From the NCBI GenBank assembly GCA_028873925.1, contig JAPPNA010000166.1, forward strand, positions 1-36,899: 36,899 nt of DNA. Direction: 5' to 3'. The notes under the pieces are model-generated. The model searched no databases, had not been told where the DNA came from, and saw only the letters and a program-made list of their open reading frames with translations. This stretch comes from Bacteroidota bacterium (GTDB taxonomy: Bacteria; Bacteroidota; Rhodothermia; Rhodothermales; Bin80). Below, piece after piece: positions 1 through 1,615 of this stretch. Every line of letters begins with the position of its first letter. Position 1 is the stretch's first letter. The translations under genes were made by a program, and so were the position numbers.

Positions 1-11
1 GCAATTGGACC

Positions 12-81
12 ATCGCGGTAGCCCCCGGGTTTCCCCGGGGGCCCACACAGATCCAAATGTGCGCGCTAACGCATCCGGCTC
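12..81 (-). ncRNA. Group II intron domains V-VI
   Basis: This is the catalytic core and branch-site region of the intron on the minus strand. Visible elements are the GAGCC 5' strand of domain V paired to a 3' strand ending GGATC, the AC bulge, and the domain VI stem GCCCCCGGG/CCCGGGGGC with a GAAA loop, followed by UACCGCGAU with a bulged A. Relative to the usual 34-nt domain V this copy is 32 nt. Two lower-helix pairs are G-U wobbles, and the apical loop is not GNRA in my folding. Confidence 0.8.
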
Positions 82-114
82 CTCCCTCGGGTCGCGCTCC
101 GACGCATGACGTTG

Positions 115-134
115 GAGAGTAGTCCACTACTCTC
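115..134. repeat. Perfect 8-bp hairpin (likely intron domain IV)
   Basis: GAGAGTAG and CTACTCTC are separated by the four bases TCCA. The hairpin lies about 35 bases upstream of domain V on the minus strand. In ORF-bearing group II introns domain IV carries the reverse-transcriptase gene; here only this stem is present. Confidence 0.5.
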
Positions 135-705
135 GGCCGTAACAGGTCCACCTTCTACACAGACCGACTCTGTGTCCGACCTGCCTATAGCACACGAACC
201 CGGCCCTGTATCCGGTGCGTGCTAAGATAATGTCTCATTGTGCTGCGCAGAAACCACGCCAGCACAGGCCCGGTGCGACCAACAGCCAGACAAATCCACA
301 CTCTCACACAGGGAGCCAAAAAACTACTCTTTCACCGGCCCCAACGGACACTTACCTGTCAACCTGAAAGACCGGAAACAGGACACCAGATCCACCGCAA
401 AAGGTTTTACCAGGCCATAACTTGGGGTAATGGCAGTACTTGCTCACCCGGACCAGGCAATCGGGCTGCAATCAAGCACAATAAAATTTTCAGTATGGAG
501 ATTCACGCACCTGTGTATCCCATGTCAATGATCGAAGCCCCTGCAGTTTGTGGGTCCCGCATACCGTAGGATCGCCGCCGAATGTGAAGTCGGACGCATG
601 GCCTCCGGTGCGGTAGCGGTTCTCTCGCTTAAGACTCATCGGCGGTGCGGCCTGAATCGGTCGCAGGCGGGCTGTGCCGCCCCTACGGCCGCCTGCGAGC
701 CACAC

Positions 706-1615
706 GCGATAGCCAAAGTGTGTCCAGGTAGACCTGTACCGCCTGCCTAAACGCCCCGAAATCGGATTCCAGCTCCTGTATCTTGTGAGGAGGTATTTGA
801 CAGTAAGTTTGAATCGGTTGAGAAGTCAGCCGGTGTGTTCGCGAAGATCAGGCACTGAGTGTGGCCATTCCGTCCGGATTCGCGGCGCTCACCCCCTCCC
901 GGGACGTATTGTCCGTTGGGATCGTCGCCGCAGTACGAACAGCCAAATCCTTAGCAAATGGAGAAAGCACCGTTGCAGGCACAGCCTACCGGTCGGCGCG
1001 GCACAGTAATCCAGCCCGCCGTTGAACATCTGTCCCTGCCAGCATCCGACCGCTTCCGCCGGATCTAAGTTTCCGCATCCGCTCTTGAAATCGGCCCATT
1101 CAAACCTGCCGATGCCGTACCGGGCATCTTCGGCCTGCACCCGGATTCCATGCCGCGCGGATGGTCCTGAAGCCGAACAAAATGCCGGGGCAGAGGTACG
1201 AACCGCCGGCCGACCCTTTCGGGCCGGAGCTTAACTTGGAATTAAGCGATGGCTGAATATGAATGCCCGCATTGGGAGCCGGATCTGCGGAAAACCCGGG
1301 AGGCAGATTGATGTACCCGCGTGAAGCTTATCAAGGGTCCTTAATGTTTGGACGCACCGGGACATGCTACTATTGCACATCGGATTGAGATCGGAATGCT
1401 CTCACTGAGCAGGACAGTCCATGATCACTGCTGTTGGAGACCTAGAAATCTGGTGGTGGAAACCGGCGAGGATACCGTGAGACTGGGCATCTGCGACATG
1501 GACACCAGCGCCGTTGAGGCCTGCGCTGAATGCAATGGATTTTCCGCCGCTGCTTGCGCGCCGGATGCGCTCCATGCTGCTGCGAAGCGCACGGCCCGCC
1601 GTTAGACGAAACCTG
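706..1615. other. About 0.9 kb with no convincing gene
   Basis: Short open frames exist on both strands, but none has recognisable motifs or consistent codon use. On the minus strand between about 1230 and 950, two adjacent frames read like a decayed protein: one frame contains GSYLCPGILFGF and the next RFEWADFKSGCGN. I cannot identify a family, so this is noted only as a possible remnant. The MoxR-type AAA ATPase that usually precedes DUF58 genes is not here. Confidence 0.4.

Follow-up and report, generated by a model that had tools for sequence, protein, structure and literature searches.

Results

A patch of decayed mobile elements at the left edge of the window

The window, by which we mean the whole stretch of 36,899 nucleotides analysed here, is one contig (C60) of a genome assembled in 185 contigs. 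Its first clear gene, DUF58, lies at 1514-2560, and the left edge that precedes it is a patch of decayed mobile elements with the following features:

12-226, minus strand: 3' part of an ORF-less group II intron (end of domain IV, domain V and domain VI), 5'-truncated, recognised by homology to the copy on contig C143
12-81, minus strand: domains V and VI of a group II intron, recognised by a family covariance model, the fold and a common 3' boundary; domain V at 81-50, domain VI at about 47-12, branch-point A at 19, intron 3' end (...CGAT) at 12
222-443, plus strand: last ~220 bp of a DDE-transposase insertion sequence (IS) that is repeated in the genome, outer end at about 443, recognised by homology
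444-903, no strand: unmatched stretch containing GTGTG (705-701) and a hairpin at about 660-700
904-1062, minus strand: decayed remains of a group II intron-encoded protein, from the region of its maturase domain, recognised by tblastn and genome search

A first-pass annotation had placed here a single intron of about 700 nt, running from 705 to 12. A search of the genome with window positions 1-1400 instead divides this interval into two repeats, 9-226 and 222-443, the first of which matches intron copies on contigs C143, C28, C93, C6 and C135. The second shows 85-92% identity to sequences on C26, C53 and C140 and recurs at many contig ends, a large number of which start within it. It stops at about 443, where its copies diverge, and the C140 copy borders a DDE_Tnp_1 (PF01609) transposase ORF. 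Positions 222-443 are the end of an IS and not intron, and 444-705 matches no intron either, which leaves only 12-226 of the proposed span.

Across 444-903 as a whole we found no intron, IS or Rfam match; the genome search gives weak short-repeat matches only, and the relatives give no match except one of 37 nt. Positions 645-700 form a hairpin with a perfect stem (TCGCAGGCGG...CCGCCTGCGA), of which about 25 nt (645-669) recur in four other contigs at 88% identity; this is possibly a small interspersed repeat. No empty orthologous site was found when one was sought in the relatives.

Genuine domains V and VI with signs of decay

Read on the minus strand, positions 81-12 are a genuine group II domain V and domain VI, as the first-pass annotation had recognised. 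The segment folds with an MFE of -38.6 kcal/mol (z -3.55, none of 200 shuffles being as good), its 81-50 hairpin carries the AGC strand and the AC bulge, and a covariance model built from ten members of the intron family, with the window copy left out, scores it at 81.8 bits (E 4.3e-14). Base pairs of domains V and VI covary across the same ten members, with 98.4% of cells paired compared to 88.0% after shuffling, and with 22 compensatory cells, in which both sides have changed, compared to 7.3 in shuffles.

In the window copy, a long hairpin capped by GAAA forms domain VI, and an A in it is left unpaired 8 bases before the ...CGAT end. The position proposed earlier for a bulged A was thus correct (A at 19, end at 12), but not its description as a single bulge: one G has been lost from this domain VI, and the branch A consequently lies in a 2-nt UA bulge. 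Domain V carries wobble substitutions, and its 3' strand reads ATTT compared to GTCC in the family. The decay of domain V explains why the copy is missed by the Rfam Intron_gpII model (RF00029), one of the group II models with which the first-pass annotation had proposed to check the element: neither RF00029 nor the D1-D4 models give a match in the window at gathering score, or over positions 1-1500 even up to E=5. RF00029 has 15 matches elsewhere in the same genome. We do not consider the Rfam null in the window to be a refutation, since the family model and the DNA homology are decisive.

Truncation relative to a complete sibling

A complete, ORF-less member of the family, with all RNA domains, a GTGYG start and no reverse transcriptase ORF, lies on contig C143 (L014:878-1573). 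It is 696 nt long (GTGCG...CGAT); its domain I scores 138.8 bits with RF02005 (E 3.6e-40) and its domains V and VI score 33.7 bits with RF00029, which is below the gathering score of that model. Window positions 12-226 are 88% identical to the 3' part of this intron (E 1.3e-71) and align to its last 219 nt only; the window copy is therefore truncated in domain IV. The first ~477 nt of the C143 intron have no counterpart anywhere in the window. The copy starts at intron position ~477, without a GTGYG 5' end and without domain I and its exon-binding sites, no D1-D4 match being found in 1-1500 at E up to 5.

Domain I was likewise not found inward from 705, where the first-pass annotation had said that it should be foldable if the proposal was right. 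We reject GTGTG (705-701) as the intron 5' end, given that 444-705 has no similarity to any intron and that the first 477 nt of the sibling are absent. The agreement between the proposed span (~700 nt) and the length of the sibling (696 nt) is a coincidence. By alignment, the window copy is cut at about position 477 of 696, in domain IV, and joined there to an IS fragment.

At the other end, the boundary (...GCGAT) is the same in five other copies (C143, C28, C93, C6 and C135), beyond which the flanks diverge; other copies with identical ends, which the first-pass annotation had suggested looking for, thus do exist, at least five genomic copies ending at the same base. Past the intron 3' end the contig continues for 11 bases only, too short a stretch by which to judge the 3' exon or flank of the window copy. 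C135 carries a second internal 5'-truncated copy, from intron position 586, and on C28 the intron adjoins transposase sequence at a different point from the window copy. The family is multi-copy in this bacterium, and the window copy is probably a dead relic and not a working intron.

A maturase fossil and the reverse transcriptases of the genome

The earlier statement that no reverse transcriptase accompanies the intron holds for 12-705, but a maturase fossil on the same strand, at 904-1062, had been missed. Tblastn gives 52% over 50 aa (E 1.7e-11), corresponding to residues 408-460 of a 502-aa relative, and the genome search recovers the fragment at E 1.1e-9; weaker maturase similarity continues past 1062 to about 1122. 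Pfam and NCBIfam give no maturase match for the 904-1062 fragment, and there is no recognisable domain V of its own near the fossil (904-1122, minus strand).

No intact cognate maturase gene, of the kind that the first-pass annotation had expected elsewhere in the genome, is present among the assembled contigs. The pieces that are assembled consist of an N-terminal part on C6 and small fossils only. On C6, a related intron 5' end (68% identical) leads into the N-terminal 133 aa of a maturase, which is cut off by the contig end, and 54-56 nt of the 5' end of that intron recur at 96-98% identity on C23, C140 and C47, at the contig edge in the case of C23 and C140. The likeliest explanation for the missing intact maturase is that near-identical copies have collapsed in the draft. 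Two intact reverse transcriptases in the genome of the window (G000), at about 29.4-30.0 kb of C48 and about 1-3 kb of C31, were considered as drivers and rejected, since they match the DRT2 and DRT1 models of anti-phage defence.

ORF-bearing relatives and twintrons

The C143 intron contains a remnant resembling the N-terminus of the family maturase, KSDALIVVMKPANK, near the start of domain IV, and another resembling the maturase C-terminus, SATRGRSRMR, which runs into domain V. Two genomes of the same bacterial family, G004 and G015, contain related introns with an intact maturase of 502-504 aa (TIGR04416, 353-374 bits), which ends in ...ATQGRSRMR with its stop codon in the domain V loop. Among the relatives, the loci L172, L174, L177 and L178 have the maturase stop inside the domain V terminal loop (...GRSRMR*, from GGATGCGTTAA). 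A stop codon in this position may explain why the terminal loop of domain V in this family is the unusual UUAG or UUAA in place of GNRA.

In G004, ORF-less copies number at least eight and maturase genes are numerous, and a domain IV segment of the ORF-less lineage is common to G000 and G004. In three G004 twintrons (contig C3; L174, L173 and L179), an ORF-less intron is interrupted at one and the same site by a maturase-bearing intron. The junction, with slashes at the limits of the inner intron, reads CAGATGT/GTGCG...CGCGAG/GACCATAG, and uninterrupted copies read CAGATGTGACCATAG; the outer halves of one of these twintrons, joined by script, are 94% identical to an uninterrupted copy.

Discussion

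We are highly confident that positions 12-226 (minus strand) are what is left of an ORF-less group II intron, a dead copy that lacks its 5' part and is fused to an IS end, and that its parent family arose from a maturase-bearing intron and presumably spread in trans. In this reading, deletion of most of the reverse transcriptase ORF from domain IV of a maturase-bearing intron gave the ORF-less parent family. The shortened intron then spread, presumably with the maturase of related ORF-bearing introns acting in trans in its splicing and retro-insertion. The copy at 12-226 has kept the exact 3' end, with a domain IV remnant, domain V and domain VI with its branch point, and lacks domains I-III. 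Because these domains are absent, it is without a 5' splice site, exon-binding sites and the platform to which domain V binds, and would thus be unable to splice or move. The copy is joined to the IS end at 222-226. An incomplete reverse-transcription insertion may have produced this junction, and so may a deletion that occurred later between IS and intron; either is compatible with the data. What remains of the original proposal of an ORF-less intron in need of a maturase from elsewhere is the ORF-less nature of the lineage and its probable reliance on a maturase in trans; the copy itself is not complete.

We give almost no credence to the idea that a complete, functional ORF-less intron extends from 705 to 12 and is spliced by a maturase from elsewhere. 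Although domains V and VI at 12-81 are real and the length would be close to that of the complete sibling, the D1-D4 models that give 138.8 bits with the sibling are silent in 1-1500 (E up to 5), 222-443 is IS sequence, 444-705 has no similarity to any intron and domain V is decayed. The maturase fossil raises another question, namely whether 904-1062 and the domains V and VI at 12-81 are parts of one ORF-bearing intron, split by the IS and other insertions. The two lie on the same strand in the right order, the maturase domain and then domain V, and 904-1062 resembles the same maturase family; however, 112-226 matches a domain IV segment that the ORF-less lineage has (C143, C28) and that is absent from the intact ORF-bearing introns compared, and the intron part is 88% identical to C143, whereas decay has gone much further in the fossil (about 50% protein identity). 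This much stronger decay suggests that the fossil comes from an older, separate element, and we consider a common origin unlikely.

A further alternative is an assembly artefact that joined two repeats at 222-226, with the real intron copy continuing upstream, and it is true that both pieces are multi-copy and that many draft contigs break inside them. The junction is nevertheless inside the contig and not at its end, C135 provides another internal 5'-truncated copy (from position 586), and the C28 intron adjoins transposase sequence at another point, all of which makes an artefact very improbable. We therefore retain the reading of 12-226 as a truncated relic, and see roughly an even chance for a wider scheme, in which at least two genera of one Rhodothermales family have retained the ORF-less lineage, the 502-504-aa maturases drive it in trans, the ORF-bearing driver has inserted more than once at a fixed site inside the ORF-less intron, and the window copy is a dead product.

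The closest known parallel is provided by the ORF-less TeI3 introns of Thermosynechococcus elongatus, in which the ORF was deleted and the ORF-less form then spread (Mohr et al. 2010, PMC2882425). As in TeI3 (PMC2882425), domain IV has lost the ORF apart from N- and C-terminal remnants, the intron is multi-copy and coexists with related maturase-bearing introns, and twintrons occur. The host is different, and trans-mobilisation, which an assay demonstrated in T. elongatus (PMC2882425), is here presumed. The G004 twintrons, with the ORF-bearing intron inside the ORF-less one, also show the reverse arrangement to those of T. elongatus (PMC2882425). In terms of Rfam families, C143 matches both group-II-D1D4-6 (RF02005) and Intron_gpII (RF00029), the latter below gathering score, and the window copy matches neither, being truncated and decayed. 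It does not differ materially from truncated bacterial group II introns in general (reviewed in PMC4424553), and is an ordinary, inactive 5'-truncated member of an already known kind.

The window itself is of little import: bacterial group II introns usually end in this way, as truncated copies amid mobile-element debris. There is mild value in the surrounding family, which adds another example to the T. elongatus pattern of ORF-less introns dependent on related maturases, and which illustrates how decayed but real copies can escape the generic Rfam domain V model and yet be picked up without difficulty by one built for the family. The same type of domain V was also seen in an alphaproteobacterial MAG, jk18x34bins.26 (JAJDYL01, L112-L171), on dozens of contigs and mostly near contig ends, which suggests that this MAG holds a very high-copy group II intron.
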